Origin: Xylanimonas cellulosilytica DSM 15894 | GTDB taxonomy: Bacteria > Actinomycetota > Actinomycetes > Actinomycetales > Cellulomonadaceae | DNA length: 64,000 nt | Assembly (NCBI RefSeq): GCF_000024965.1 | Contig: NC_013530.1 | Location: 496,001-560,000, forward strand | Reading direction: 5' to 3' | Shown: positions 1 through 22,089 of the stretch, piece by piece | How the letters are laid out: every line of letters starts with the position of its first letter | Numbering within the stretch: position 1 is the first letter of the stretch | Notes under the pieces: generated by a model | Seen by the model: only the letters and a program-made list of their open reading frames with translations | What the model was told of the DNA's origin: nothing | The model's database searches: none | Made by a program: the position numbers and the translations under genes

Positions 1-49
1 GGTCGGTCGACGGGTCACCTGACCGGCTGCCGCGCAGGCCACGAGAGGG

Positions 50-109
50 ACGAGCGTCCCGGTATGTCTCGCTATCGGGGGTAGTAGCGGGACAGACCGG
101 GACGTTCGT
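50..109. repeat. Long imperfect palindrome, left copy flanking the sulfur operon
   Basis: Two 24-nt arms (50-73 and 86-109) pair with three mismatches around a 12-nt loop. The arms begin ACGAGCGTCCCGGT and end ACCGGGACGTTCGT. The same palindrome, nearly identical in sequence, recurs as a perfect hairpin at 5521-5582, so the two copies bracket the leader, ABC transporter and sulfatase genes. A related end sequence (GACGTTCGT) is also found in the tandem array at 47787-47990. It has no T-tract, so its role as a terminator is uncertain. Confidence 0.85.
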
Positions 110-185
110 CGTCGGGCAGCGCGGTTCTTCTTGACCAAAATGCGAGACAAAGCCGTTCACGGCTGGCACCGGCCCGCCGAGGCGC

Positions 186-197
186 TACCTTCGGACC
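186..197 (+). promoter_or_regulatory. -10 box of a leaderless promoter for the Cys leader ORF
   Basis: TACCTT (186-191) is followed by six bases and then the ATG at 198. With normal -10 spacing transcription would start at or next to the A of the ATG, giving a leaderless mRNA. No convincing -35 box is visible, which is common in actinobacterial promoters. The same TANNNT-N6-start layout precedes several other genes in this window. Confidence 0.6.
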
Positions 198-275
198 ATG
201 AGCCGGACGAACCACCGCGACACCGCACCGCTGTGCGCCGCGCGCTGCTGTCGTCCCTGTTGTTGTCGCCGCTGA
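198..275 (+). CDS. Polycysteine leader peptide (25 aa) of the sulfur operon
   Basis: A 25-codon ORF starts at ATG 198 and stops at TGA 273-275. It has six Cys codons at residues 13, 17, 18, 21, 22 and 23, and the peptide ends CCRPCCCRR. Such Cys density is not expected by chance in this 70%-plus GC coding background. Leaderless short ORFs ending in Cys runs are known in mycobacteria as cysteine-responsive attenuators of sulfur operons, and this one precedes a sulfonate/sulfate-ester transporter and a sulfatase. I infer that ribosome stalling at the Cys codons when cysteine is scarce raises downstream expression. A second Cys-rich leader precedes the other sulfur operon at 21865-21975. Confidence 0.8.
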   Translation: MSRTNHRDTAPLCAARCCRPCCCRR

Positions 276-464
276 GCCGCACCTGCCGCTGACGCCGCTC
301 TCACAACGGCACCCTCGACCGGCATCCTCGACCGGCATCGCAGGGCGTCCCGCCGTCGTCTGACCGCGCGCTCCTCCACCACCCGACACGCCCGTGGCCG
401 GCGTCGCCTCGTCGACCCCCGGCACGGGTCCCGCCGTCGTGCCTTCACTCCGAGAGGACCACCC
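276..464 (+). promoter_or_regulatory. Leader-to-operon spacer with candidate alternative hairpins
   Basis: This 189-nt spacer between the Cys leader and the permease holds no gene. It contains a direct duplication CTCGACCGGCATC near 313-340. Two mutually exclusive pairings are possible near the 3' end: GGCACG (421-426) with CGTGCC (438-443), or GGTCC (427-431) with GGACC (456-460). The second would occlude the Shine-Dalgarno GAGAGGA (452-458). This would fit an attenuator switch, but it is an inference from short stems in GC-rich sequence. Confidence 0.4.
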
Positions 465-1358
465 ATGTCTGCCCCGCCCGCTCCCGCGCCACCCGCGCGC
501 CCACCGCGTACCGACGGCGTCCCCGCCGACGGGTCGGTCCGCGTCGGCGTCGACGACCGGTTCCACCGGGCACCGTCTCGGCCCGCCGGGCTCCAGCGGG
601 TGACGCAGGTCGCCGGCCGCGCCATCGGTCCGCTGTTCGTGCTCGCACTGTGGTGGGTCGCCTCCGCGCAGGCGTGGGTCTCGCCCATCCTGCTCCCGGC
701 GCCCGGCACGGTCTGGGCCGCCGCCGTCGACCTCGTCAGCTCCGGCAAGCTCCAGGACAACCTGGGCGTGTCGCTCGGCCGAGCCATGACCGGCCTGGGG
801 ATCGGCCTCGTCGTCGGGGTCACGCTCGCGCTGCTCACCGGCCTGTCCAAGGTGGCCGAGCTGCTCGTCGACTCCAACGTCCAGATGGTGCGGTCGATGC
901 CGATCCTGGCGCTGCAGCCGCTGGTCATCGTCTGGTTCGGCATCGGCGAGCCCACCAAGATCCTGCTGGTCGCCCTCGCGGTCACCTTCCCCGTGTACAT
1001 CAACACCCACGCCGCGATCCGCGCCGTCGACGCGCGCTTCGTCGAGCTCGCCACCACCCGCGGCCTCGGTCGGCTCGCCCTCGTCCGCCACGTCGTGCTG
1101 CCCGGCGCGCTGCCCGGCTTCCTCACCGGTCTGCGGTTCGCGACGTCGATCTCCTGGCTCGTCCTCGTCGTCGCCGAGCAGATCAACGCCACCGCCGGCA
1201 TCGGGTACCTCATGACCCAGGCCCGCACCGTCGCACGCACCGACGTGATCATCGTCGGGCTGGTCGTCTACGCGCTGCTCGGCCTGCTCTCCGACACCAT
1301 CGTCCGGCTCGTCCAGAGGAAGGCACTGTCATGGTCATCGACGCTCCAGGCACGCTGA
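465..1358 (+). CDS. ABC transporter permease, sulfonate/sulfate-ester type (SsuC/TauC family)
   Basis: A 297-aa inner-membrane permease of an ABC importer. A Pro-rich cytoplasmic N-terminus of about 50 residues is followed by several hydrophobic segments. The EAA-type loop that docks on the ATPase is visible around residues 193-220 (VELATTRGLGRLALVRHVVL). The start at ATG 465 has a Shine-Dalgarno GAGAGGA seven bases upstream. It overlaps the ATPase gene by 28 nt, so the two are translationally coupled. Family members take up nitrate, sulfonate, taurine or sulfate esters. The Cys leader upstream and the sulfatase downstream favour an organosulfur substrate, but the exact one cannot be read from sequence. 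Confidence 0.9.
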   Translation: MSAPPAPAPPARPPRTDGVPADGSVRVGVDDRFHRAPSRPAGLQRVTQVAGRAIGPLFVLALWWVASAQAWVSPILLPAPGTVWAAAVDLVSSGKLQDNLGVSLGRAMTGLGIGLVVGVTLALLTGLSKVAELLVDSNVQMVRSMPILALQPLVIVWFGIGEPTKILLVALAVTFPVYINTHAAIRAVDARFVELATTRGLGRLALVRHVVLPGALPGFLTGLRFATSISWLVLVVAEQINATAGIGYLMTQARTVARTDVIIVGLVVYALLGLLSDTIVRLVQRKALSWSSTLQAR

Positions 1359-2095
1359 CACCGCCCGCCGGCGGGACGGCCGCCGTGCAGCAGCCGGTGG
1401 TCGTCGAGGCCCGCGGGATCACCCGCGCCTTCGACGGCCGCGGCGTGCTGCACGGCATCGACCTGACCGTGCGCCGTGGCGAGTTCGTCGCGCTGCTGGG
1501 CCGGTCGGGCTCGGGCAAGTCGACGCTGCTGCGCATCCTCGCGAAGCTCGACACCGAGGCCACCGGCACCATCAAGGTCCCGGCCCAGCCCGGCGTCGCG
1601 TTCCAGGACTCGCGCCTGCTGCCGTGGGCCCGCGTGCTGCCCAACGTGCTGCTCGGCCTGCGTGACGGCGACGCCCGCGAGCGGGCCCGCACCCTGCTCG
1701 ACGACGTCGGCCTGGGCGACCGGGCACGCGCCTGGCCGCGTCAGCTCTCCGGGGGCGAGCAGCAGCGCGTGGCGCTCGCCCGGGCGCTGGCCGGCGCCCC
1801 CGAGCTGCTGCTCATGGACGAGCCGTTCGGTGCGCTCGACGCGCTCACCCGCATCCGGATGCACCGCCTCCTGCGCGAGCTCGTCAGCCGCTACTCCCCG
1901 TCCGTCGTTCTCGTGACGCACGACGTCGACGAGGCCGTCCTGCTCGCGGACCGCGTCCTGGTGCTGACCGACGGCCGACTCTCCCTCGACGAGCAGATCG
2001 ACCTGCCCGTCGTGGGCCGCCGCTCGCACCCGGGCTTCGTCGCGCTGCGCTCACGTCTCCTCACCGAGCTGGGCGTCGGCGACGACGACCACTGA
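1331..2095 (+). CDS. ABC transporter ATP-binding protein (SsuB/TauB family)
   Basis: A 254-aa ATPase that powers the importer encoded beside it. Walker A GRSGSGKST is at residues 57-65, the Q-loop FQDSRLLPW at 91-99, the signature LSGGEQQR at 139-146, Walker B LLLMDEPFGALD near 159-170 and the switch His in THDVDEA at 197. All catalytic motifs are intact. The ATG at 1331 lies inside the end of the permease gene, and the motif-bearing frame is open from there. It closely resembles the ATPase of the second sulfur operon (18905-19780), sharing the SRLLPWARVL segment, which suggests two related uptake systems with different binding proteins. Confidence 0.92.
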   Translation: MVIDAPGTLTPPAGGTAAVQQPVVVEARGITRAFDGRGVLHGIDLTVRRGEFVALLGRSGSGKSTLLRILAKLDTEATGTIKVPAQPGVAFQDSRLLPWARVLPNVLLGLRDGDARERARTLLDDVGLGDRARAWPRQLSGGEQQRVALARALAGAPELLLMDEPFGALDALTRIRMHRLLRELVSRYSPSVVLVTHDVDEAVLLADRVLVLTDGRLSLDEQIDLPVVGRRSHPGFVALRSRLLTELGVGDDDH

Positions 2096-2151
2096 ACGCC
2101 CACCGCACACCCCCACCTCCGCACCTCCCCACGTCTGAGAGAGGCACTCCC

Positions 2152-3198
2152 ATGCCCACACACCACCGCCGCCACCGCACCGGCACCATCGCCACCGCTC
2201 TCGCCGCCCTCGCCGCCCTGACCCTGGCGGCCTGCTCCTCGGACGCCGGGGCCGCCACCCCGAACACGTCGGGCGCGGCCGACGCCTCCGACACGGGAAC
2301 AGGCGTCACCCTGCGCTTCGGCGAGCTCGGGTCCGCGCTGACCCAGCAGGCGCTGCTCGAGGCGGCCGGCGAGTTCGACGACCTGCCCTACGAGGTCGAG
2401 TACTCGCTGTTCCCGGCGGGCCCCGCCTTCATGGAGGCCGTCCCGTCCGGTGCCGTCGACCTGTCGATCCAGGCGGACACCCCGTCGATCTTCGCGCAGG
2501 TCGGGGGCATCCCGATCAAGGTGGTCGGCGTCCAGGCCTCCGTCAAGACGGGCGAGTCGTTCGTCGAGATCGTCGCCAACCCCGACTCCGGCATCACGTC
2601 CGTCGCGGACCTCAAGGGCAAGAAGGTCGCCGTCCTGCCCGCCACGATCCTGCAGTACACGGTGGTGCGCGCCCTGGAGGAGGCCGGGCTGTCCTACGAC
2701 GACATCACCCCCGTCGAGCTCCCCCTGACCGACGCGCCCGCCGCCCTCGCCAAGGGCGACGTCGACGCCGTCGCCTCCCTCGACCCCACCCTCGCGCAGC
2801 TCAAGGCGTCCGGCGCCGTCGTCGTCGGCACCGGGCTCGGCATCACCTCGGGCTACTCCTACGTCGTCGCCACGGACGCCGCGCTCGCCGACGCCGCGAA
2901 GAGCGAGGCGATCGCCGACTACCTCGGCCGCCTCGGCCGCGCCGAGGAGTGGGCCGTCGCGCACGGCGACGAGTGGGCCGCCATCAGCTCCGAGCTGACC
3001 GGCCTGCCCGTCGAGCTCGCCCAGGCCGCCCAGGAACGCTCCGCGGCCGGCTGGGTCGCCATCGACGACCAGGTCATCGCCCTCCAGCAGGAGCAGGCCG
3101 ACGCCTACACCGCGCTCGGGCTGATCCAGACCCCGCTCGACGTCTCGGCCTACTACGACGACCGCTTCAACGACGTCCTGACCGGAGGCACCAAGTGA
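2152..3198 (+). CDS. ABC transporter substrate-binding lipoprotein (SsuA/TauA family)
   Basis: A 348-aa extracytoplasmic solute-binding protein. A Lys/Arg-poor, Arg/His-rich start and hydrophobic stretch lead to a lipobox ending at Cys28 (TLAACSS), so it should be lipid-anchored outside the membrane. The body has the NMT1/aliphatic sulfonate-binding pattern, including the SVADLKGKKVAV segment near residue 150. A Shine-Dalgarno GAGAGAGG precedes the ATG. The last codon and stop overlap the sulfatase start (GTGA). It delivers the ligand to the permease-ATPase pair upstream; taurine, aliphatic or aromatic sulfonates and sulfate esters are all possible ligands. Confidence 0.88.
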   Translation: MPTHHRRHRTGTIATALAALAALTLAACSSDAGAATPNTSGAADASDTGTGVTLRFGELGSALTQQALLEAAGEFDDLPYEVEYSLFPAGPAFMEAVPSGAVDLSIQADTPSIFAQVGGIPIKVVGVQASVKTGESFVEIVANPDSGITSVADLKGKKVAVLPATILQYTVVRALEEAGLSYDDITPVELPLTDAPAALAKGDVDAVASLDPTLAQLKASGAVVVGTGLGITSGYSYVVATDAALADAAKSEAIADYLGRLGRAEEWAVAHGDEWAAISSELTGLPVELAQAAQERSAAGWVAIDDQVIALQQEQADAYTALGLIQTPLDVSAYYDDRFNDVLTGGTK

Positions 3199-5513
3199 CC
3201 GCGCAGCACCCCGACGTCCCCGCCCACGCCCGCGGCTACGACCGGTTCCCCGGCCGGATCGGCACCACCGCCCGCGAGTCGACCCGCGCGTGGCCCCGCC
3301 CGAAGGGCGCCCGGCCCGGCACCCCCAACGTCGTCGTCGTCATCCTCGACGACATGGGGTACTCCGACGTCGCCCCGTACGGCTCCGAGATCCCGACGCC
3401 GCACCTCACGGCGCTCGCGGAGCGCGGCTACCGGCTGACGAACTACCACACCACGCCGGTCTGCTCGCCGGCGCGGGCCGCGATCCTCACCGGGCTCAAC
3501 CCGCACCGGGCCGGGTTCGCGTCGGTGGCGAACTCCGACCCGGGGTTCCCCAACCTGCGCCTGGAGATCGACCAGGACGTCGCGACCCTGCCCGAGTCGC
3601 TGCGCGCGGCCGGGTACGCCACCTACGCGTTCGGCAAGTGGCACCTCACACGCGACGCGCTCATGCACGACGGCGCCGACAAGTCGTCGTGGCCGCTCCA
3701 GCGCGGCTTCGACCACTTCTACGGCACGCTCGAGGGCCTCAACTCGTTCTTCCACCCCAACCAGCTCGTGCGCGACAACACCCCCGTCGACCGCGACGAC
3801 TGGCCGGCGGACTACTACCTGACCGACGACCTCACCGACGACGCGATCTCCCAGCTCGCGACGCTGCGTGCCCAGGAGCCCGACAAGCCGTTCTTCCTGT
3901 ACTTCGCGCACCACGCGATGCACGGGCCGCTCGGCGCGAAGGCCGAGGACATCGCCGCCCAGCGCGGCGCGTACGCGGCGGGCTGGGACGAGGTCCGCCG
4001 CGCCCGGCACGCCCGACAGCTCGAGCTGGGGCTGTTCCCGCCGCAGACGCCGCTGCCGCCGTCGGCCACCGAGCCGGGCTTCGACGTCCCCGCCTGGGAC
4101 GGCCTCGACGCCGACACGCAGGACCTCTACGCGCGGTACATGGAGGTCTACGCGGCGATGGTCGCCAACGTCGACGAGAACCTGGGCCGCCTGCTGGGCG
4201 TCATCGAGGACCTCGGCGAGCTGGACAACACGATCGTCGTCTTCACCTCGGACAACGGCGGCACCGCGGAGGGTGGCCCCGAGGGCACGCGCTCGTACTT
4301 CTCGCGCTTCGTGCACGTCGCGGGCCTGCCGCAGGACTGGGAGGCCGACGTCGCCCGCGACCGCGACGTCATCGGCACCCCGCGTTCGATGGTCCACTAC
4401 CCGCGCGGCTGGGGTCAGGTGTCCAACACCCCGTTCCGGTTCTACAAGGGCCAGACCCACGCCGGCGGGGTGCGCGTGCCGTTCCTCGTCTCCTGGCCGG
4501 CCGGCCTGCCCAAGGCCGCCGACGACGACGGGCTGCGACGCCAGTACCAGTACGTCACCGACCTGACGCCCACCCTGCTCGACCTCGTCGGCGTCGAGCG
4601 CCTGGCCACCCGCCAGGGCCTGCCGACGCAGGAGATCGACGGCGTCTCGCTGCGCCCCGTGCTGGCGGAGCCCGCCGCCGCCTCGACCCACCCCGAGCAG
4701 TACGCCGAGTTCGGCGGGTCGCGGGGCTTCTACCGGGACGGCTGGAAGCTCGTCTCGCTCCACACGCCCGGCCGGTCGATCACCGCGCCGCAGTGGGAGC
4801 TCTACCACGTGGACGAGGACCCCAACGAGCTCGTCGACCTCGCGGCCAAGGAGCCCGAGCGCGTCGCGGAGCTCTCGGCAGCGTGGGAGGACGCCGCCTG
4901 GCGCAACACGGTGTTCCCGCTCGGTGCGGCGTTCGCCCCGGGCCGGCGCCCGGCCGAGAAGGCGCTCGAACGACCCGTGCGGCTGCTGCCGTCCACGCGG
5001 CGGCTGGAGCGCTACCGGTCGTCGAAGCTGACGTCGCTGCGCTCGTTCGAGGTGCTGGCCGAGGTGCTCGAGCCCGGCGAGGGCGTGCTGGTCGCGCACG
5101 GCGACCAGGGCGGCGGCTACGCGCTGTACGTCGAGGAGGGCGTGCTGCACCTGGCGTTCAACGAGTACGGCCGCCTGCACGAGGCGCCGCTCGGCGCCTT
5201 CACCACGGGGGAGGTCCGCGCATCGTTCACGTGGCTCCCCGAGTTCCGGTGGCGCATCGAGGTCACGGTCGACGGCGAGGCCCGCGGCGGCCTCGACTCC
5301 GTGGCGATGCTCCTGGGGATGGCCCCGTTCAGCGGCATCGACGTCGGCGTGAACCGTGGCGGCCCCGTCCACTGGGGCGTGTACGAGCGGCACGGGTCGT
5401 TCCGGTTCACCGGCCGGCTGGCCGCCGTGACGTACGAGCCCGGCGAGCACGCCGCCTACGACGTCGCGCAGGTCGCGGCCGTCGAGGAGGACGTGGCGGA
5501 GTACTACGACTGA
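3195..5513 (+). CDS. Arylsulfatase-type sulfatase, cysteine class (formylglycine enzyme)
   Basis: A 772-aa sulfatase that would hydrolyse sulfate esters to release sulfate. The maturation motif CSPAR is at residues 90-94, so Cys90 should be converted to formylglycine by an enzyme not encoded here. Metal ligands sit in LDDMGYSD (51-58) and FTSDNGG, and the GKWHL motif is present. The GTG start overlaps the stop of the binding-protein gene by 4 nt. At 772 aa it is longer than a minimal sulfatase; residues from about 570 form a beta-rich C-terminal extension. No signal peptide is visible, so it probably acts in the cytoplasm on imported sulfate esters. The layout is analogous to the ats sulfate-ester clusters of pseudomonads. 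Confidence 0.92.
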   Translation: MTAQHPDVPAHARGYDRFPGRIGTTARESTRAWPRPKGARPGTPNVVVVILDDMGYSDVAPYGSEIPTPHLTALAERGYRLTNYHTTPVCSPARAAILTGLNPHRAGFASVANSDPGFPNLRLEIDQDVATLPESLRAAGYATYAFGKWHLTRDALMHDGADKSSWPLQRGFDHFYGTLEGLNSFFHPNQLVRDNTPVDRDDWPADYYLTDDLTDDAISQLATLRAQEPDKPFFLYFAHHAMHGPLGAKAEDIAAQRGAYAAGWDEVRRARHARQLELGLFPPQTPLPPSATEPGFDVPAWDGLDADTQDLYARYMEVYAAMVANVDENLGRLLGVIEDLGELDNTIVVFTSDNGGTAEGGPEGTRSYFSRFVHVAGLPQDWEADVARDRDVIGTPRSMVHYPRGWGQVSNTPFRFYKGQTHAGGVRVPFLVSWPAGLPKAADDDGLRRQYQYVTDLTPTLLDLVGVERLATRQGLPTQEIDGVSLRPVLAEPAAASTHPEQYAEFGGSRGFYRDGWKLVSLHTPGRSITAPQWELYHVDEDPNELVDLAAKEPERVAELSAAWEDAAWRNTVFPLGAAFAPGRRPAEKALERPVRLLPSTRRLERYRSSKLTSLRSFEVLAEVLEPGEGVLVAHGDQGGGYALYVEEGVLHLAFNEYGRLHEAPLGAFTTGEVRASFTWLPEFRWRIEVTVDGEARGGLDSVAMLLGMAPFSGIDVGVNRGGPVHWGVYERHGSFRFTGRLAAVTYEPGEHAAYDVAQVAAVEEDVAEYYD

Positions 5514-5520
5514 GTGAAGT

Positions 5521-5582
5521 GACGAACGTCCCGGTCTGTTCCGCCATCGAACGCGGTAGCGGAACAGACCGGGACGTTCGTC
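5521..5582. repeat. Perfect 24-bp-arm palindrome, right copy flanking the sulfur operon
   Basis: The arms 5521-5544 and 5559-5582 pair perfectly around a 14-nt loop. The left arm begins GACGAACGTCCCGGTCTG. It starts seven bases after the sulfatase stop codon, so it probably also ends the transcript, although no T-tract follows. It is nearly identical to the palindrome at 50-109 on the other side of the operon. Confidence 0.9.
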
Positions 5583-5643
5583 GTATGGGTAGTTCTGCCC
5601 ATCCGTTCCGCGAGACCGATGCCCCGATTTGGCGCAGATTGTC

Positions 5644-5649
5644 TATCCT
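5644..5649 (+). promoter_or_regulatory. Candidate -10 box for the giant Ig/FN3 protein gene
   Basis: TATCCT lies about 70 bases upstream of the GTG start at 5719. No clear -35 box is at the right distance. A small hairpin, ATGGG/CCCAT around 5585-5602, lies just upstream. Support is weak. Confidence 0.3.
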
Positions 5650-5718
5650 GTCGTCGCGCCGGGCAACGGTTGTCGATCAGGGCACCATCGGGCCAGCGTC
5701 CTCATGTCAGGGAGAACT

Positions 5719-8700
5719 GTGGGCCTCTTGTCACGACTTCGCGCCAACCACCGCAAGGCCGTCTCGACCGGAACCGTGTTCGCGCTGGCCGCCGGGCTGG
5801 TGACCGCCGCGGTGCTGACCGACGGCGAAGCCAGCGCTGACCTGCAGCTCAACGACGCCGGGGTCTGGGTCACGAACCAGTCCTCAGGGCTGGTCGGCCG
5901 GTTCAACACGAGCGCCGGAACCCTGGACGGCACCCTCCTCGCGGGCTCCGCCGCGTTCGACGTCGACCAGCAGGCCCGCTACGTGCTGGTGGCCGACGAC
6001 GGGTCGTCGACCGCCAGCGCCGTCGACGTCGCGCGGCTCGAGTTCTCCTCCACCACCAAGGTTCCCGCGGGCGCACGGCTCGCGATGGGCGGCGGCGTCG
6101 TCGCCGTCGTCGACGACGAGTCCGGCTCGCTGTGGGTCACGACCCTCGACGGGCTGCCCGGGCTGGACCCCGCGAAGACCGACCCGACCGCCGAGCTCGA
6201 CGGCGCGGCCGAGGTGGTGGTCTCGGAGACCGGGGTGGTGCACGCCGTGGTCCCCGACCGGGACGTGCTGTGGACGGTGAAGCCGGGTGCGGACCCCGAG
6301 ACGAAGACGCTCGACCTCATGCAACGGGGCGACGACGTCGTGCTCACGACGGTGGGGGACGACGCCGTGGTGCTCGACCGCACCCGGGGCCGGCTGCGCC
6401 TGCCCGGCGGTGACACGGTCGAGGTCGTGAACGCGCAGGGCGCGCAGCTCCAGCAGCCCGGGCCCGAGGCCGACACGGTCGTCTACGCGACGTCGTCGGC
6501 ACTCGTCGAACAGCCGCTGCGCGGCGGGGACGCGACCCTGCGGCAGGCCTCGGGCATGCCGGCGGCGCCCGTGCGGGTGGCGGGCTGCCTCTACGGGGCG
6601 TGGTCCGGCACGGGCCAGATCCTGCGCGACTGCGAAGGCACGGACCGGGACGTCGACGACGCGCTCGAGGACCTCGACCAGACGGCCGTCCTGCGGTACC
6701 GCGTCAACCGCGACGCCGTCGTGCTGAACGACCTCGCGGCCGGGACCGTGTGGATCGCGATGGACCAGTTCGAGCGGGTCGACGACTGGGAGACCACGCA
6801 GCCCGACGAGGGCGAGCAGGACGGCACGAGCCCCGACAAGACCACCCCCGAGATGGTCGACAGCACGGTGGTCGACCGGGAGAAGCAGACCCCGCCCACG
6901 GCGCAGGACGACGAGTTCGGCGTCCGCCCGGGCCGCGCCACCGTGCTCGACGTGCTGTCGAACGACATGGACCGTGACGGCGACGTCATCACCGCGACCC
7001 GCACCGGCGACCAGCCCGCCCCGATCACCATCGAGGAGGTGCTCGACGGCGCCGCCCTACAGGCCGTGGTGCCCGAGGACGCCACCGGCACCGTCCAGTT
7101 CCCCTACACGGTGTCCGACGGGCGTGGCGGCACCGACGACGCGCAGGTCTCGCTGCGCGTGGTGCCCTGGGGGGAGAACGCCGACCCGTTCCAGCTCGGC
7201 GAGCCCGTGCTCCGCGTCCAGAAGGGCGGCCGGGGTGCGATCCGCGTGCTGCCCTACTTCCGCGACCCCGACGGCGACGACATCTACCTGGCCACGGCCT
7301 CGGTGTCGGTGGACGGCGACGAGGCGCGCGCCTACCCGGACGGCCTCGTCGAGTTCCGTGACGGCGGGTCTGCGACCGGCCGCAAGAACGTCACCGTCAC
7401 GGTGGGTGACGGCCACGGCGGTGTCGTCGAGGGCACGCTGTGGGTCGACGTCATCAACTCCCAGGAACCGCCGGTCGCGGTCGGGGACCACGTCGCGGTG
7501 CTGGCCGGTCAGCCGGTCACGGTCGAGCCGCTGGCGAACGACTCGGACCCGAACGGCGACTCCATCCGCCTCGTGAGCGTGAGCGAGGCCGCGCCCGCGC
7601 AGATCACGCCCAACTACGACGCGGGCACGTTCTCGTTCCTGGCACGGGACCCGGGCTCGTACGACGTGCTCTACCAGGTGTCGGACGGCCCGTCGACCAC
7701 CACGGGCGTGGTCCGCGTGGACGTCCGCGCCCCGGACGCCGCGAGCGGCGCCCCCGTCGTCGTCTCCGACACGGTGATGCTCTCGGCCGGTGGCACCGCC
7801 CTGGTCGACGTGCTCGCGAACGACACCGACCCTGCGGGCGGGGTGCTCGTGGTGCAGTCCTTCGAGGTGCCCGACGACGCGGGCCTCAGCGTCACGGTGC
7901 TCGCCCACCAGGTGCTGCGCATCTCCGAGTCGCGGCGCCTGGCCGAGTCCGTGGTGATCCGGTACACGGTGTCCAACGGCACCCAGGTCGCCACCGGCGA
8001 GGTGCGCGTCCTGCCCGTGCCCGCCCCCGATCGGCTCCAGCCGCCGAACGCCGAGCCCGACGAGGTCACGGTGCGCGTCGGCGACTACGTGACCATCGAC
8101 GCGCTGGCCAACGACACCCACCCCGACGGGCTGGAGCTCACGATCGCCGACGACCTCGAGCAGGGCGTCGACCCGGAGCAGGGCGAGATCTTCGTCTCGG
8201 AGGGCATGCTCCGCTTCCGTGCCGAGGCGCAGGAGGGCACCGCGTACGCCATCTACAAGGTGCGCGACCCGAACGGGCAGGAGGACTCCGCCCAGGTCAC
8301 GATCCACATCCGCGGCGGTGACGACAACCAGGCGCCCACCCCGCCCGACGTCGCGGCGCGCGTCATCACCGGCGGCGTCGTGCGGGTGCGCATCCCGCTG
8401 GACGGCATCGACCCGGACGGCGACTCCGTCCAGCTCGTCAACATCGTCGCCCCGCCCGCGCTGGGCATCGCCGAGATCGTCGACGGCCGGTTCATCGACT
8501 TCCAGGCCACGCGCGGCGCGATCGGGCAGGACACGCTCACGTACTCGGTGGTCGACGCACGCGGCGCGAAGGCGCAGGGCGTCGTCCGGATCGGCATCGC
8601 CCCGCCCGCCACGACGAACCACGCCCCGATCGCCGAGGACGACGTGGTGTGGGCGCGGCCCGGACGCACCGTCTCCGCGGCGCCGCTGGGCAACGACTCC

Positions 8701-15347: not shown

Positions 15348-15393
15348 GCTGTGCTGATGAGCCACTAGCCGCTGTGCTGATGAGCCACTAGCC
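15348..15393. repeat. 23-bp tandem duplication at the 3' end of the monooxygenase gene
   Basis: The 23-bp unit GCTGTGCTGATGAGCCACTA(GCC) occurs twice head to tail (15348-15370, 15371-15393), with a partial third copy upstream near 15324. The second copy includes the stop codon of the minus-strand flavin monooxygenase gene and its last two codons. It fills the gap between the convergent acuC and monooxygenase genes. Confidence 0.85.
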
Positions 15394-16446
15394 GCGCAGG
15401 AGCGGCAGCAGCTCGCGGCCCTGGCGCTCGATCTCCGGCAGGTACGGGGTGTCGGACAGCACGAAGTGCGTGACGCCCAGGTCCTCGTAGCGCTGGAGCG
15501 CCTTGGCGACGTCCTGCGCGGACCCCACCAGCCAGGTGGTCGCCGCGCCGCCCGCGCCGAGCCGGCCGGGGGTGGTGTAGAGGATGTCGTCGAGCACCTC
15601 GCCGCGCGCGGCGAGGTCCAGCAGCCGCTGCTGCCCGACGGCGGTGGGCCGGTTCCCGCGCCGGCCCGACCCGGTGGCGGAGAGGGCCGCGACCTTGTCC
15701 TCGGCCGCCGCCCACGCCTCGTCCGTGGTGTCCCGGACCACCGTGGTGATGCGCAGGCCGAACTCGAGCGGCGCGTGCTCACGGCCCAGCTCCTGTTCGA
15801 GCGCCCGCAGCCGTGCGATGCGCTCGGCCACGCCGTCCAGCGGCTCGCCCCAGAAGAGCTGCACGTCCGCCTCGGCGGCCGCCACGCGCTGGGCGGCGTC
15901 GGACGCCCCGCCGAAGTACAGCGTGGGGTGCCGGCGCTCGCCGACGGTCACGGGCTTGAGCTCGAGCCGTGAGCCCGCCACCGAGAAGTGCTCCCCGGCG
16001 TAGGTGACCTCCTCCTGCGTCCACAGCCGGCGCACGATCTGGAGGAACTCCTTCGTGCGGGCGTAGCGGTGCGCCTGGTCGCCTTCCACGTCCCCGTAGG
16101 CCGCGAGGTCGTCCTGGCCCGAGACGATGTTCACCAGCGCGCGCCCACCCGTGAGGTGGTCGAGCGTGGCGGCCGACGACGCGAAGTGCGCCGGGCGCCA
16201 GTAGCCGGGCCGCACCGCGATCAAGGGCTTGAACGTGGTGGTGCGTGCGGCCAGCGCGGCAGCGACCGTGAACGTGTCGGGGCGGCCCCAGCTCGTGCCC
16301 AGCAGGGCGCCCTCCCACCCGGAGTCCTCGAGCGCACGGGCGTGCTCGGTGAGGTGGTCGAGCGAGTTGTGCTCGGGGATCACCGGTTCGCCGCGGTGGC
16401 CCGGGCGCGTGTGGTTGGGGATGTACCAGAGGAAACGGCTGCTCAT
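15388..16446 (-). CDS. LLM-class flavin-dependent monooxygenase, alkanesulfonate monooxygenase-like
   Basis: A 352-aa bacterial luciferase-like TIM-barrel enzyme. It has the SsuD-type pattern: an N-terminal strand with RFLWYIPN, the VRPGYWRPAHFA segment near residue 80, and the RALVNIVSGQD loop near 105. SsuD enzymes use FMNH2 and O2 to cleave alkanesulfonates into aldehyde and sulfite. It is the last gene of the minus-strand organosulfur operon, 10 bases after the aldo/keto reductase gene. No flavin reductase is encoded nearby, so reduced FMN would come from elsewhere. Substrate range is inferred from the transport genes. Confidence 0.88.
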   Translation of the reverse strand: MSSRFLWYIPNHTRPGHRGEPVIPEHNSLDHLTEHARALEDSGWEGALLGTSWGRPDTFTVAAALAARTTTFKPLIAVRPGYWRPAHFASSAATLDHLTGGRALVNIVSGQDDLAAYGDVEGDQAHRYARTKEFLQIVRRLWTQEEVTYAGEHFSVAGSRLELKPVTVGERRHPTLYFGGASDAAQRVAAAEADVQLFWGEPLDGVAERIARLRALEQELGREHAPLEFGLRITTVVRDTTDEAWAAAEDKVAALSATGSGRRGNRPTAVGQQRLLDLAARGEVLDDILYTTPGRLGAGGAATTWLVGSAQDVAKALQRYEDLGVTHFVLSDTPYLPEIERQGRELLPLLRG

Positions 16447-16456
16447 GATCGGCTCC

Positions 16457-17488
16457 TCAGCGCGCGGCGGGACGCCGGCGGGTCGCCGCGTCGGTCAGGG
16501 ACGGCGGCTGGTAGCCGGCGTCGGCGGGGTTGAGCGTGACGCCCGGCGGCACGATGCGGTCGATCTCGTCGAGCACGTCGGAACTCAGGCGCACGTCCGT
16601 GGCGGCGAGCGCCGCGTCCAGGTGCGCCCGCGTGCGCGGCCCGACGATCGCGGACGACACGGCGGGGTGCTCCAGGACGAACCCCAGCGCGAGCTGGACC
16701 AGCGTGAGACCCGCCTCGGCCGCGAGCTTCTCCAGCCCTTCCACCGCGGCCGCCTTGAGCACGTTGGCCGGCAGGGCGGGGTCGTGCCGTCCGGGCTTGC
16801 GGGCGCGGCGCGGGCTGTTGGCCGCGGCCGCCTCGTCCCGCCCGGACAGCCAGCCGCCCGCCAGCGGGCTCCAGGGCAGCACGCCCAGCCCGTACTGCTG
16901 GGCGATCGGCAGCACCTCCGTCTCGACGCCGCGGGCCAGGATCGAGTACGGCGGCTGCTCGGTCACGGGCCGCTCACGGTGCCGCTTCTCGGCGACCCAC
17001 TGCGCCTCGACGAGCTGGCCCGGCAGGAACGTGGACGTGCCGAAGTAGCGGATCTTGCCCTGGCGGACCAGGTCGGTGAGGGCGCCGAGCGTCTCGTCGA
17101 TGTCGATCCCCGGCTCGGGGCGGTGCACCTGGTACAGGTCGATGTGGTCGGTCTGCAGGCGGGTGAGCGAGGCCTCGACCTCACGCACGATCCAGCGGCG
17201 CGAGTTGCCCGCGTGGTTGATGTCCTCGCCCAGGCGGCCGTGGAACTTCGTCGCGAGGACGACGTCGTCGCGGCGGCCGCGCAGGGCCTTGCCGACGATC
17301 TCCTCGGACTCGCCGGCGGAGTACACGTCGGCGGTGTCGACGACGTTGATGCCGGCGTCGAGCGCGGCGTGGATGACGGCGATCGACTCGTCGTGCGAGG
17401 TGCCGCCCCAGGCGCCGAAGTTCATCGTGCCGAGGGTCAGCGGGGAGACGTGGACGCCGGTGCGTCCGAGGGTGCGGTAGGTGGTCAT
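16457..17488 (-). CDS. Aldo/keto reductase
   Basis: A 343-aa NADPH-dependent (beta/alpha)8-barrel oxidoreductase. The catalytic tetrad is visible: Asp51 and Tyr56 in VVDTADVYS, Lys81 in ATKFHG and His123 in YQVHRPEP. It is near the YhdN/voltage-channel beta-subunit branch in length and sequence. It sits between the two flavin monooxygenase genes. I infer that it reduces the aldehyde released when a sulfonate is desulfonated. The ATG start at 17488 is one base after the end of the preceding gene, so it is tightly coupled. Confidence 0.9.
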
Positions 17489-17489
17489 C

Positions 17490-18908
17490 TCAGGCTCCAG
17501 TCGTGGCAAGGGATGCGGTGGGGGAGGTGGCGGGGGTGGCCGCCTGGGTGATCGCTGGGGTGGCGGCCGGGGTGCGGGCCGCGGTCCAGCGGTTGGCGGG
17601 CACGTCGAGGCCGTAGTGCTCGCGCAGGGTGGTGCCCTCGTACGCGGTGCGGAACAGGCCGCGCGCCCGCAGGATCGGCACGACGTGGTCGACGAACGTC
17701 TCCAGCCCGGACGGCAGCACCGGCGCCATGATGTTGAACCCGTCGGCGGCGCCGTCGTCGTACCAGGCCTGGATCGTGTCCGCGACCTGCTCGGGCGTGC
17801 CCGTGAACGTGCGGTGGCCGCGGCCACCGCCCAGACGGCCGACAAGCTCGCGCACGGTGAGGTTCTCGCGGCGCGCGAGCTGGACGATGAGCGTGTAGCG
17901 GCTCTTGGCGCCCTCGATCTCGTCCTCGTCGGGCAGGTCGGCGGGCAGGTGCCCGTCCAGCGGCAGGTCGTCGGGGCTCACCCGCAGCGTCCGGGCGAGC
18001 TGGGCGACGGCGTAGCGCGGCACGATCAGGTCGTCGAGCTCCCGCTCGAGCGCCTGGGCCTCGGCCTCGGTAGAGCCGATGACGGGCACGATGCCCGGCA
18101 GGATCTTGATCCCCTCCGGGTCGCGGCCGTGGGTCACCGCCCGGTTCTTCAGGTCGAGGTAGAACGCGTGCGTGTCCTCGAACGTCTGGTGGGCGGTGAA
18201 CACCGCCTCCGCATAGCGGGCGGCGAGCTCCTTGCCGTCCTCCGAGGACCCGGCCTGCACGATGACGGGGCGGCCCTGCGGGGTGCGGTGCGTGGTCAGC
18301 GGCCCCGCCACGGAGAAGTGCGTGCCGACGTGATCGATCGCGTGGACCTTGTCGTTGTCGCCCCACACCCCCGAGGCCTTGTCGCCGATGACGGCGTCCT
18401 CCTCCCACGAGTCCCACAGGCCGAAGGCCACGTCGAGGAACTCCGCGGCCCGCTCGTACCGGGTGGCGTGCAGCGGCTGCTCGTCCAGGCCGAAGTTGCG
18501 AGCCGCGGCGGGGCCCGCCGTCGTGACGACGTTCCAGCCCGCGCGACCGCCGGAGACGTGGTCGATCGACGCGAACCGGCGGGCCAGGTTGTACGGCGAG
18601 TTGTACGTCGTCGACGCCGTGCCGATGAGGCCGATGCGCTCGGTGACCGCGGCCAGCGCCGTGAGCACCACGATCGGGTCGAGCGTGCCGGCCGGGCGCC
18701 GGCCGATGTCGCCCCACAGCTGCGGCGAGTCGGCGAAGAACACCGAGTCGAGCGTGCCCGCCTCGGCGATGCGGGCCAGCTGCTGGAAGTGCGCGATGGA
18801 CAGGGACTCCGCCCCGGCCGGCGACGCGGGCAGCCGCCACGACGCCTCGTGGTGGCCCGTGCTCATGAGGAACGCGTTGAGGATCAGGTGTCCAGGTCGG
18901 TGGGTCAT
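17490..18908 (-). CDS. LLM-class flavin-dependent monooxygenase, NtaA/SnaA/DszA family
   Basis: A 472-aa FMNH2-dependent monooxygenase of the nitrilotriacetate/dibenzothiophene-sulfone type. The N-terminus ([19 protein letters not shown]) and the segment [19 protein letters not shown] near residue 110 are typical. Family members oxidise xenobiotic or sulfone substrates with O2, and several act in sulfur scavenging. The start ATG overlaps the ATPase stop by 4 nt. The last about 27 residues are an Ala/Thr/Pro-rich low-complexity tail with repeated AATPA units, beyond the catalytic fold. Confidence 0.88.
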
Positions 18909-19780
18909 GCGGGGATCTCCTGCCGTGCGTGGGGGTCGGGGGTGGCGTTCTCGACGCCGAGCGCCGCGAGCAGCTCGGCGCGCAGCGCGCGGGGGTCCGG
19001 GTGGTCCGCCGGGCTCCGCTCGGCCGCGATCCGGCCGACGTCGAGCACCACCACCCGGTCGGCCAGCACGATCGCCTCGTCGACGTCGTGCGTGACCATG
19101 AGCACCGCGGGACGGTGCCTGGCGAGCAGATCGCGCAGCAGACCGTGCATCCGGGTGCGGGTGAGCGCGTCCAGCGCGCCGAACGGCTCGTCCGCGAGCA
19201 GCAGCTCGGGGGAGCGGACCAGGGAGCGGGCCAGCGACACGCGCTGCTGCTCGCCGCCCGAGAGCTCGCCCGGCCAGGCGCGCTCGCGCCCCGCGAGCCC
19301 CACCTCGGCCAGCGCCGCGGCGCCGGCCCGGCGGGCCTCGGCGCGGCTCAGGCCGGTCGACGCCTCCAGGCCGAGCACCACGTTGTCGAGCACGCGCGCC
19401 CACGGCAGCAGCCGCGAGTCCTGGAACACCACCGACACCGACCGCGGCACCGTGATCTCACCCGTGCCCGGCACGTCCCGGTCCAGCCCGGCGAGCGCCC
19501 GCAGCAGCGTGCTCTTGCCCGACCCGGACCGGCCGAGGATCGCGACGAACTCCCCGGGCGCGATCCGCAGGTCCAGGTGGTCCAGCACGGGGGCGTCCCC
19601 GTAGGCGCGGACCAGGTCGCGGACGACGACGGGGTCGGTCGGTCCGTCAGCCTGGTGGTTGCCCTTCAGTCCCAGGATCTCTGGGTCGGACTGTGGCTGC
19701 GCTCCGCTATGGCGAGTGCCTCGTTCCTCGGCCCTCACCTCCGCTGCGCTCCGCCTCAGTCCTCCAAGGTCTTGCGCCAT
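18905..19780 (-). CDS. ABC transporter ATP-binding protein with repeat-encoded N-terminal extension
   Basis: A 291-aa ATPase of the second organosulfur importer. Walker A GRSGSGKST is at residues 83-91, followed by FQDSRLLPW, LSGGEQQR and LLLADEPFGALD, all intact. The conserved domain begins only near residue 49. The first 48 residues are an unrelated polar stretch, of which about residues 8-29 are encoded by a dispersed repeat (19695-19758). ATG 19780 is supported by a strong Shine-Dalgarno GAGGAGGG and overlaps the permease end by 25 nt; no other ATG/GTG lies between the repeat and the conserved domain. The extension therefore appears to be translated. Confidence 0.9.
   Translation of the reverse strand: MAQDLGGLRRSAAEVRAEERGTRHSGAQPQSDPEILGLKGNHQADGPTDPVVVRDLVRAYGDAPVLDHLDLRIAPGEFVAILGRSGSGKSTLLRALAGLDRDVPGTGEITVPRSVSVVFQDSRLLPWARVLDNVVLGLEASTGLSRAEARRAGAAALAEVGLAGRERAWPGELSGGEQQRVSLARSLVRSPELLLADEPFGALDALTRTRMHGLLRDLLARHRPAVLMVTHDVDEAIVLADRVVVLDVGRIAAERSPADHPDPRALRAELLAALGVENATPDPHARQEIPA
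19695..19758 (-). repeat. Dispersed GAGGAACGAGGCACTCGCC repeat at a stop codon
   Basis: Read on the minus strand, this block begins TGAGGCGGAGCGCAGCGGAG and contains CGAGGAACGAGGCACTCGCC before GCGGAGCGCAGCC. Its first three bases are the TGA stop codon of the permease gene. The same block, about 70 bases long, lies at 63443-63510, where it again begins at a stop codon (nuoK). Here it is also read through as the N-terminus of the ATPase. Confidence 0.85.
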
Positions 19781-20619
19781 GAGAGCGCCCTCCTCTGCAG
19801 CAGACGGACGGCGCTGTCGGCGCTGAAGCCGAGGACGCCGTAGACGACGAGGCCGACGACGATGACGTCCGTCTGCCCGTAGGTGCGGGCGAGCTCCATC
19901 ATGTAGCCGATGCCCGCGGTGGCGTTGACCTGCTCGACGACGACGAGGGCGAGCATCGAGCCCGTCACCGCGAAGCGCAGGCCCAGCAGGAACCCGGGCA
20001 GCGCGCCGGGCAGCACCACGCGGCGGATGAACTGCGCGCGAGGCAGCGAGACCGTCTCGGCGAGCTCGACGAACCGGGCGTCGATGGACCGCAGCCCGTT
20101 GTGGGTGTGGATGTAGATCGGCAGGAACACGCCGATCGCGATCGTGATGACCTTCATCTCCTCGCCGATGCCGAACCAGAGGATCAGCAGCGGCAGCAGT
20201 GCGAGGTTCGGGATGGAGCGCTTGACCTGGATGGGCCCGTCCAGGAGGGCGTCACCCAACCGGCTCAGCCCGGCGATGAGGGCCAGGACGAGGCCGATCG
20301 ACACGCCGAAGAAGAGCCCGAGCGCGGAGCGGTGCAACGAGACCAGCAGGTTCTCCTGCAGCCGTCCGTCCGCGATCAGGTCGGCGCCGGTGGTCACGAC
20401 GGTCCAGGGCGCGGACAGCACCCGAGGGTCGATGAAGCCGGTGGCGGCGCCGACCACCCAGATCAGGGCGAGGGCGGTCACGCCGAGCAGGCCGGCACCC
20501 TTGATCGGGCGGCCCAGCCGCAGCCGGGTGCGCGCCGCGGGGCGGACGTCCGCCGTCGTCGTCGGGCGTGCGGACGTGCGCAGCGAGGTGGCCCCGGGGG
20601 CGGTGATCGTGGCGGTCAC
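19756..20619 (-). CDS. ABC transporter permease, sulfonate type (SsuC/TauC family)
   Basis: A 287-aa membrane permease. The N-terminal 45 residues are cytoplasmic and Thr/Arg-rich. The EAA-type loop VELAETVSLPRAQFIRRVVL is near residues 190-210, and the PGALPGFLLGLRF stretch matches that of the first operon's permease. The GTG start at 20619 overlaps the binding-protein stop by 4 nt (GTGA). It forms the membrane channel for the importer encoded by its two neighbours. Confidence 0.9.
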   Translation of the reverse strand: MTATITAPGATSLRTSARPTTTADVRPAARTRLRLGRPIKGAGLLGVTALALIWVVGAATGFIDPRVLSAPWTVVTTGADLIADGRLQENLLVSLHRSALGLFFGVSIGLVLALIAGLSRLGDALLDGPIQVKRSIPNLALLPLLILWFGIGEEMKVITIAIGVFLPIYIHTHNGLRSIDARFVELAETVSLPRAQFIRRVVLPGALPGFLLGLRFAVTGSMLALVVVEQVNATAGIGYMMELARTYGQTDVIVVGLVVYGVLGFSADSAVRLLQRRALSWRKTLED

Positions 20620-21740
20620 GGTGCACTCCCGTCGGCCTCACGCTGCTCCTGCGCCGCCTGGAAGGCGACCTCGGTGAAGCGGGTGTCGAACAGGTCGGTG
20701 GCGACCAAGGGCTCACGCTCCTGCTCCTTGGAGAGCAGGTCGATGGTCTCCTGGGTGCGCTCGATGCCCTCTGCCCAGTCCTCGGGGATGTCCGGGACGG
20801 TCGCGTGGTCGATGAGGTACTGCGCGTCCTCCTCGTTCAGCCCTTGGTCCTCGATGTAGTACTTCTGCTTCCACTCCTCGGGGTGGTCGGACACCCAGAT
20901 CTTCGCCTTGGCCCACGCGGCGACGTACTGCCGCAGGGCCGCGAGCTTGGCCGGGTCGTCCAGCACCTCGACGGGGGCGTAGAGGTGCGAGGCATCGTCG
21001 CGCAGGTGGTGGTCGATGGCGCCGGCGCCGTCGGCCTCGTACTTCCCGAGGTAGCGCTTGACGGCGGTGCCGCCGACGGGTGCGACGTCGACCTCCTTCG
21101 CGGCGAGCGCCGTCGGGTACACGTCGCCGGTGGACGGCAGCTCGACGAGCGTGACGTCGTCCTGGGTCAGACCGGCGGCGACGAGCGCCTTGAGCACCAG
21201 CGCGCCCTGGGCCTGGCCTGGGCTGTACGCGATCCGCTTGCCCGCCAGGTCCTCGAGCGAGTCGAACGTGACGCCGGGGGCGGAGGCGAGCTTGTAGGTG
21301 GGCGCGGTGTCCCAGTTCTCCTTGTAGAGGGCGGCGATGTTGCGCACCGGCACCCCGGTCCAGGTGGCCTGGAGCGACGGGATCTCGGCCACGGCGCTCA
21401 CGTCGAGCGACCTCGCGCGGAACGCCTCGAGCGACTGCGGGCCGCCGGAGATGTTGGCCCACTCGACCTCGAAGTCGAGCGGGGCGTCGATCTCGTCCCC
21501 GGCGAGCTCCAGGGCGAACTGCGTGGTGGGGTCGCCGATCACCAGGGTGGTGTCCGCGGGCACCGACGTCGGCAGCGGGTCGGTCAGGGCTGCCGTCGTC
21601 GTCGTGTCGGCCTGGGCGCGTCCGGAGCACCCGGTCAGGAGCCCGACGACGACGGCGATCGCGCCGGCCGCGGCGACGGAGCGGGTGCGGGTGGCCCGGC
21701 GGGGACGGCCGGAGGTGGATGGCGGGGCATGAGTGGGCAT
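20616..21740 (-). CDS. ABC transporter substrate-binding lipoprotein, aliphatic sulfonate type
   Basis: A 374-aa periplasmic-type binding protein anchored by a lipobox ending at Cys38 (VVGLLTGCSG). It has the NMT1/SsuA-like pattern, with YSPGQAQGALVLKAL near residue 165 and a ligand-binding stretch around ISGGPQSLEAF near 98. It is the first structural gene of the six-gene minus-strand operon. It diverges from the other system's binding protein, so the two importers probably recognise different ligands. A hairpin overlapping its ribosome site lies directly upstream. Confidence 0.9.
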   Translation of the reverse strand: MPTHAPPSTSGRPRRATRTRSVAAAGAIAVVVGLLTGCSGRAQADTTTTAALTDPLPTSVPADTTLVIGDPTTQFALELAGDEIDAPLDFEVEWANISGGPQSLEAFRARSLDVSAVAEIPSLQATWTGVPVRNIAALYKENWDTAPTYKLASAPGVTFDSLEDLAGKRIAYSPGQAQGALVLKALVAAGLTQDDVTLVELPSTGDVYPTALAAKEVDVAPVGGTAVKRYLGKYEADGAGAIDHHLRDDASHLYAPVEVLDDPAKLAALRQYVAAWAKAKIWVSDHPEEWKQKYYIEDQGLNEEDAQYLIDHATVPDIPEDWAEGIERTQETIDLLSKEQEREPLVATDLFDTRFTEVAFQAAQEQREADGSAP

Positions 21741-21988: not shown

Positions 21989-22089
21989 GGTGCTTCTGAA
22001 GTAAAACGCACCAGAATGCAGGAGGGGTTCCACGATGTGGGATCGCGCCAGCGTGGCGGACCGCTTTTCGTCGTCCGGCAGGCATCGGG

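Follow-up and report, generated by a model that had tools for sequence, protein, structure and literature searches.

The short open reading frame (ORF) at positions 198-275 is, judging from its sequence and from its counterparts in related genomes, likely a cis-acting, cysteine-sensing leader of the transporter-sulfatase operon behind it. It belongs to the window, the whole stretch of 64,000 nucleotides analysed here (C1:496001-560000 of the 3.83 Mb genome of Xylanimonas cellulosilytica DSM 15894). A sequence-only reading of this DNA had reported a 25-codon ORF packed with Cys codons and a -10 box just before it, and both were confirmed: the ORF spans 198-275, carries six Cys within its final 13 residues and ends in CCRPCCCRR, and TACCTT at 186-191 is separated by a six-base gap from the ATG at 198. 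A scan of 1-600 for sigma-70-type promoters gave 0 sites. As in the mycobacterial attenuators, a run of Cys codons stands close to the stop of a short ORF. This ORF is the first one ahead of the sulfur genes, and the transporter and sulfatase announced downstream are indeed there: SsuC-, SsuB- and SsuA-type genes are followed by a PF00884 sulfatase with a CSPAR motif. By analogy, the Cys-packed ORF probably lets the ribosome gauge the cysteine supply and turns the sulfur-scavenging genes on when cysteine is short.

Transcription would start at or beside the leader ATG, and ribosomes would load on the 5' end of the transcript and translate at once, a leaderless mode of loading that is suggested by the spacing of the -10 box. 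When Cys-tRNA is short, ribosomes would pause in the tail of Cys codons and, if mycobacteria are a guide, this pause would allow the transporter-sulfatase operon to be expressed; where cysteine is plentiful, the ribosome would finish and depart, and expression of the operon would fall, again by analogy with mycobacteria. Around this locus, two similar inverted repeats at 50-115 and 5518-5585, with right arms that appear almost identical by eye, bracket the leader-operon unit. They may be terminators or members of a repeat family.

A leader ORF of this kind is unlikely to arise by chance. We counted as comparable any ORF whose last 16 codons include at least three Cys and whose start follows a TANNNT box by 5-8 bases: the real window holds two, against a mean of 0.1 and a maximum of 1 per simulated window (40 third-order Markov simulations), and no comparable ORF in the 40 simulations reached six Cys within its final 13 residues. 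The two boxed Cys ORFs of the window each precede one of its two listed SsuC homologues. Two other readings of the locus were discarded. An alternative ORF at 131-292, with 53 codons from a TTG, runs across the leader in a different frame; it has a single Cys, near its end, and no Cys run. A longer ORF common to the window and to the genus mate Xylanimicrobium pachnodae (genome G005; NCBI name Xylanimonas pachnodae, Promicromonosporaceae) was rejected because the upstream start of the window is out of the leader frame; only X. pachnodae has an upstream ATG in frame (54 codons).

Table 1. Features of the window, ordered by position, with the basis of each assignment.
Feature	Position	Strand	Basis or remark
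Conserved 20-mer TTGACCAAAATGCGAGACAA, possible activator site	131-150	+	Centre 57.5 bases before leader ATG; putative function
-10 box TACCTT	186-191	+	Sequence; would imply a leaderless transcript
Leader ORF 1 MSRTNHRDTAPLCAARCCRPCCCRR	198-275	+	ORF list and translation; Markov null; ortholog in X. pachnodae
C-rich, G-poor leader-permease gap	276-450	+	C-skew 0.27; no intrinsic terminator found; weakly folded
Ribosome-binding site GAGAGGA of permease gene	452-458	+	Sequence
SsuC-type sulfonate ABC permease	465-1358	+	NCBIfam best match SsuC, E 2.1e-67, under equivalog cut-off; 0 Cys
SsuB-type ABC ATPase	1331-2095	+	NCBIfam best match aliphatic sulfonate ATPase, E 1.8e-68, under equivalog cut-off; 0 Cys
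SsuA-family substrate-binding lipoprotein	2152-3198	+	TIGR01728 177.3 bits, cut-off 163.5 passed; sole Cys in LAAC
Sulfatase	3195-5513	+	PF00884 210.2 bits; sole Cys in CSPAR motif
Alkanesulfonate monooxygenase-like (SsuD-type) protein, operon 2 cluster	15388-16446	-	NF001939, E 6.2e-71, under cut-off
SsuB-type ATPase, operon 2	18905-19780	-	Best match aliphatic sulfonate ATPase, under cut-off
SsuC-type permease, operon 2	19756-20619	-	53% identity to operon 1 permease; best match SsuC, under cut-off
SsuA-like binding protein, operon 2	20616-21740	-	TIGR01728 79.5 bits, under cut-off 163.5
Leader ORF 2 MSSTQRLQEAAGAASRTAASSCLHTARQGCRCRRCR	21975-21865	-	TACGGT box seven bases before ATG; Markov null
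Palindrome-like site ATCCCACATCGTGGAAC, possible activator site	22027-22043	-	Centre 60 bases before leader 2; 5 mismatches to by-eye consensus; 1% of 200 shuffles as good

The second boxed Cys ORF, leader 2, ends 124 bases ahead of the SsuA-like gene of operon 2, which is followed in order by SsuC, SsuB, a TIGR03860 flavin monooxygenase, a further ORF that is presumably aldo/keto-reductase-like, and the SsuD-like monooxygenase. Cys-rich leaders stand at the matching position in two genomes of the same genus, G005 and G001. By eye, an inverted repeat flanks the ribosome site just before the ATG of the SsuA-like gene at operon 2 of the window (locus L171, CGAAGG-GTT-CCTTCG) and at L170, and a weaker one is visible at L156.

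The proteins of the two operons are nearly free of Cys, as expected if they are made under cysteine shortage. There are 2 Cys among the 1671 residues of operon 1 and 1 among the 2119 of the six proteins in the operon 2 cluster, for which two ORFs with long starts were read from MTHRPGHL and MTTYRTLG. Read from its long start, the second of these two ORFs would have 7 Cys, every one of them in the added part. All together, the ten proteins (15388-21740 on the reverse strand and 465-5513 on the forward strand) have 3 Cys in 3790 residues, found in the lipoboxes of the binding proteins (LAAC and LTGC) and in the CSPAR motif of the sulfatase; for comparison, 66 Cys in 10103 residues were counted in the remaining ORFs of a crude gene set. 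Low Cys content is a known pattern of sulfur-starvation proteins, and the deficit may be partly due to the kinds of protein concerned.

Operon 1 is kept in X. pachnodae, with identities of 81% for the permease, 88% for the ATPase, 87% for the binding protein and 92% for the sulfatase. In the leader 1 ortholog of this genome, MIRTSPRARAPFGATRCGRPRCCCRRCCRR, TAGGTT stands seven bases ahead of the ATG; the peptide has diverged and is longer by an insertion, and its tail is still Cys-rich. We also inspected 20 SsuC loci taken by rank (ranks 3-21 of a 121-genome search plus one G005 locus). A short Cys-rich ORF stood upstream in 16 of them (L155-L163 and L165-L171, L171 being operon 2 of the window), and in 15 of 19 when the two loci of the window itself and the X. 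pachnodae ortholog are excluded. The 16 leader loci are unequal in strength. A TANNNT box precedes the ATG by 6-7 bases in six of them (L155, L156, L157, L167, L170 and L171). In L158-L163, which represent six species from a single genus, the box reads CACAGT and the 44 codons include 3-4 Cys; at L168 and L169 the Cys ORF lacks a box by the test used; and at L165 and L166 the ORF is an 11-codon one with a GTG start, VSTFTCPCCRR, separated from the permease by 3.2-3.3 kb that contain other ORFs. No Cys-rich ORF was seen upstream in the remaining four (L164, L172, L173 and L174). A separate scan covered 60 permease loci, those judged actinobacterial by title among at least 80 permease loci of named genomes (39 of the 60 from Nocardia; 20 others dropped). 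At 58 of these 60 loci, no boxed ORF having at least two Cys in its last 14 codons was seen within 3 kb upstream; the two exceptions were X. pachnodae (L023) and Pseudonocardia acaciae (L095). These comparisons show that predicted leaders of the leader 1 type recur in the family ahead of operons of the sulfonate type, and that the Cys-rich tail outlasts the rest of the peptide.

The leader is kept in the genus mate X. pachnodae but is absent from two other genera of the family, in which all four operon genes are kept: G191 (L172; identity 76-77% for the permease, 86% for the sulfatase) and G237 (L173; 54-56% and 59%). Such a loss beside a retained operon is the outcome that the earlier reading had named as speaking against it, and it counts against the cysteine-sensing leader, as do the loci without a Cys-rich ORF in the two scans. 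Operons without the ORF would suit the explanation that it is a roleless by-product of an Arg- and Cys-rich stretch in GC-rich DNA. Nevertheless, the Markov null, the X. pachnodae ortholog and the recurrence in the family make this explanation highly improbable. We give slightly less credit still to the idea that the Cys-Arg peptide acts itself, for instance by binding a metal or a thiol, the codons being incidental: several leader peptides are indeed rich in Cys and Arg, but their sequence, length and Cys spacing differ widely between loci.

To return to the cysteine-sensing leader, the same genome holds a third candidate outside the window, MPRMCTCRPAMEMCLQGGARMHL, whose box is CAATCT (L122 at about 11582 on the reverse strand, C1 at about 779581). 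It precedes sulfite reductase-type and PAPS-reductase-family genes. Its MCTCRP stretch is not conserved: the pattern occurs in 2 of 59 genomes, namely its own and one whose stretch showed no such leader by eye. Sulfite reductase loci gave 18 strong matches among 35 relatives, and at 11 of these a short ORF with at least two Cys and a [TC]ANNNT box lies within 1.5 kb upstream (L177, L179, L182, L184, L185, L186, L188, L189, L190, L191 and L194; genomes G016, G012 and G020 are examples). L190 is doubtful, its ORF lying 1338 bases upstream and ending without a Cys cluster; the ORF of L191 has only two Cys, and that of L189, 529 bases upstream of the gene, ends in ACCCR.

Candidate activator sites lie upstream of both leaders of the window. 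The 20-mer before leader 1 keeps 19 of its 20 bases in X. pachnodae, where its centre is 59.5 bases before the ATG and the flanks diverge, and it is the sole copy in its own genome at up to three mismatches. It was rejected as a regulon-wide site on account of this single copy and of matches in 16 of 221 family genomes, 11 of them from one genus. The gene context was read for four of these 11 matches, those in matching orientation, which stand before another gene, presumably YbaK-like, without a Cys ORF of the leader kind; the other seven are on the reverse strand. The site before leader 2 resembles a GTCTC-N7-GAGAC-like palindrome that is found, with at most five mismatches and its centre 58-60 bases before the ATG, at 5 of 15 leader loci (L155, L157, L167, L170 and L171); the palindrome of L156 has 6 mismatches, a fit matched by 9% of shuffles. 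The fit to the palindrome is partly circular, because the consensus was drawn by eye from the same loci, but the constant distance is not, and this distance would fit transcription from the ATG with an activator bound further upstream. As a common factor site for operons 1 and 2 the palindrome was rejected (7 and 9 mismatches at leader 1 and its X. pachnodae ortholog), and that one factor might serve both operons is only a guess.

The earlier reading had further proposed two mutually exclusive hairpins between leader and permease, one of them masking the ribosome site; since no pairs were given, the general claim was tested by folding, which lent it no support. In the minimum-free-energy fold of 198-480, only 456-458 of GAGAGGA is paired (with 449-451), and the permease start codon (464-467) pairs with 438-441. 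Shuffled versions mostly fold better: 187 of 200 matched or exceeded the stability of this RNA (z +1.46), and 193 of 200 that of 276-480 (z +1.80). To model stalling, the stretch of RNA under a ribosome held at the Cys codons was taken out or, for a stall at the last Cys, everything up to that ribosome. The predicted accessibility of the leader 1 ribosome site was 0.42 when free and 0.43 and 0.41 with the ribosome stalled. Over 15 of the 18 leader loci (L161, L165 and L166 were left out of both the folding and the C-skew sets), a stall at the last Cys shifted this accessibility by -0.18 to +0.12 in in-silico folding, which for GC-rich RNA may miss such an effect. No rise beyond the spread of 12 mononucleotide shuffles per locus was found in the 15 loci; the largest was 0.12 (L163), and L155 and L167 dropped. 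An intrinsic terminator of the classical attenuator type (hairpin and T run) was searched for in 1-600, with 0 found, and no Rfam leader or riboswitch was detected in 1-6000, where an E value of at most 1 gave only two sub-threshold miRNA-family matches at 5521-5582. As neither an RNA switch nor an intrinsic terminator was found, the relay from leader to operon would need either a structure missed by simple folding or the action of Rho on the C-rich gap. The proposed cysteine switch is supported as regards a Cys leader before a sulfur-scavenging operon, for which the ortholog, leader 2, the 15 of 19 loci and the Cys-poor proteins speak, and finds no support in the folding results as regards a hairpin switch.

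Two versions of the cysteine-sensing leader explanation can be considered, each fixing the relay step that the explanation leaves open. In one, the leader region would fold over the ribosome site of the permease gene unless a stalled ribosome kept it from doing so, as reported in mycobacteria. We regard this masking as possible but tentative. Translation attenuation by Cys leaders has been reported in M. smegmatis, as parts of PMC9031893 and PMC13236596 relate, and a small inverted repeat is visible by eye around the ribosome site behind leader 2 and behind its two counterparts in the genus. Against it stand the predicted accessibility at leader 1, going from 0.42 to 0.41 on a stall, the lack of a rise beyond shuffles in the 15 loci, and the weak folds of both 198-480 and 276-480 relative to most shuffles.

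In the other version, to which we lend the same guarded credence, the ribosome would leave at the leader stop when cysteine is ample, the C-rich, G-poor gap would be exposed, and Rho would end transcription before the permease; at low cysteine, the ribosome stalled close to the stop would block Rho. The C-skew of the 15 leader-gene gaps is 0.19-0.35, which corresponds to the 96.2-99.7th percentile of the 150-base tiles of this window, the Xylanimonas window serving as the yardstick for loci of other genomes as well. Among the 18 upstream gaps in the crude gene set of the window, those of the two leader operons have the highest and second-highest C-skew. The weak folding of the leader RNA and the lack of an intrinsic terminator in 1-600 also fit Rho, which was suggested for mycobacterial cys leaders by Seliverstov et al. 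2005, in passages that call their own support weak (PMC1262725). C-skew is, however, unspecific: the four SsuC loci without a leader have values of 0.20, 0.15, 0.08 and -0.08, and among the sulfite reductase gaps eight with a leader have 0.15-0.25 and nine scored without one -0.07 to 0.37, two of them above 0.3 (0.37 and 0.31). The value of 0.37 belongs to L189, which may have a leader itself. The C-rich gaps lean towards a Rho relay without deciding it.

A far broader picture can be drawn for the Promicromonosporaceae and their relatives, although we consider it rather unlikely as a whole: a family-wide, ribosome-read cysteine regulon in which dissimilar Cys leaders would precede sulfonate, sulfatase and sulfite reductase operons, the scavenging proteins would shun Cys, an activator site would lie above, near -59, and the relay would be through Rho on the C-rich gap rather than through unmasking of the ribosome site. 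The candidate leaders described here would extend Cys-codon leaders from mycobacteria to another order and to organosulfur scavenging. Their Cys-rich tail persists while the surrounding peptide changes, current profile models miss leaders of such a type, and a set of dissimilar leaders allows a side-by-side test of Rho against ribosome-site masking.

In 2020, Canestrari et al. reportedly found that the polycysteine leaders of M. smegmatis act by translation attenuation, stalling freeing a masked ribosome site. The work of 2005 had predicted candidate Cys leaders in mycobacteria, P. acnes and B. longum and had put forward Rho (in passages of PMC1262725), ribosome occupancy of Cys-rich upstream ORFs was shown by Shell et al. 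2015 (in part of PMC4633059), and the mycobacterial test of 2020 is described in sections of PMC9031893, PMC13236596 and PMC9094748. That Cys-codon attenuators are described in mycobacteria, as the sequence-only reading had stated, is in keeping with the prediction of 2005 (PMC1262725) and, according to passages of the citing papers, with the test of 2020. Among the papers listed, none dealt with such leaders in Xylanimonas or ahead of sulfonate operons, in a literature search outside which most subscription journals lay.

Among known families, the present leaders resemble the Cys-bearing leader peptides of NCBIfam NF042934, NF042933 (Ms5788A) and NF042936 (Ms4527A). The L095 leader of Pseudonocardia acaciae, 2.4 kb upstream of an SsuC homologue, scores 31.9 bits with NF042934 (cut-off 27); these three models gave no match at an E value of at most 10 for leader 1, leader 2 or 13 other scanned leaders and candidates (the X. 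pachnodae leader being scanned as 29 aa, with its first Met left off). The SsuR system of Corynebacterium glutamicum shares sulfonate-use genes, leaderless transcripts and an activator, but its sites, as given in passages of PMC2580772, differ from the candidate sites here, and those passages, chosen on other terms, make no mention of a Cys leader. With the cys leaders of Mycobacterium, Propionibacterium acnes and Bifidobacterium longum, the leaders share Cys runs near the stop, a pyrimidine-rich stretch before the gene and the lack of a conserved terminator hairpin, whereas those leaders, in the parts of PMC1262725 concerned, precede other operons (cys, cbs) in other families. There is a close likeness in layout to the mycobacterial polycysteine leaderless ORFs, as described in part of PMC4633059: in both, the first ORF is short and apparently leaderless, with a cluster of Cys codons towards its end and sulfur genes behind. 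Here, in contrast, the peptides are other ones, the hosts are Promicromonosporaceae, the genes behind are those of a sulfonate transporter, a sulfatase and alkanesulfonate-monooxygenase-like proteins, and masking of the ribosome site was not seen in silico. Given the 2005 prediction of such leaders in Actinobacteria and the 2020 test in mycobacteria, leader 1 would be a further case of a known leader type.
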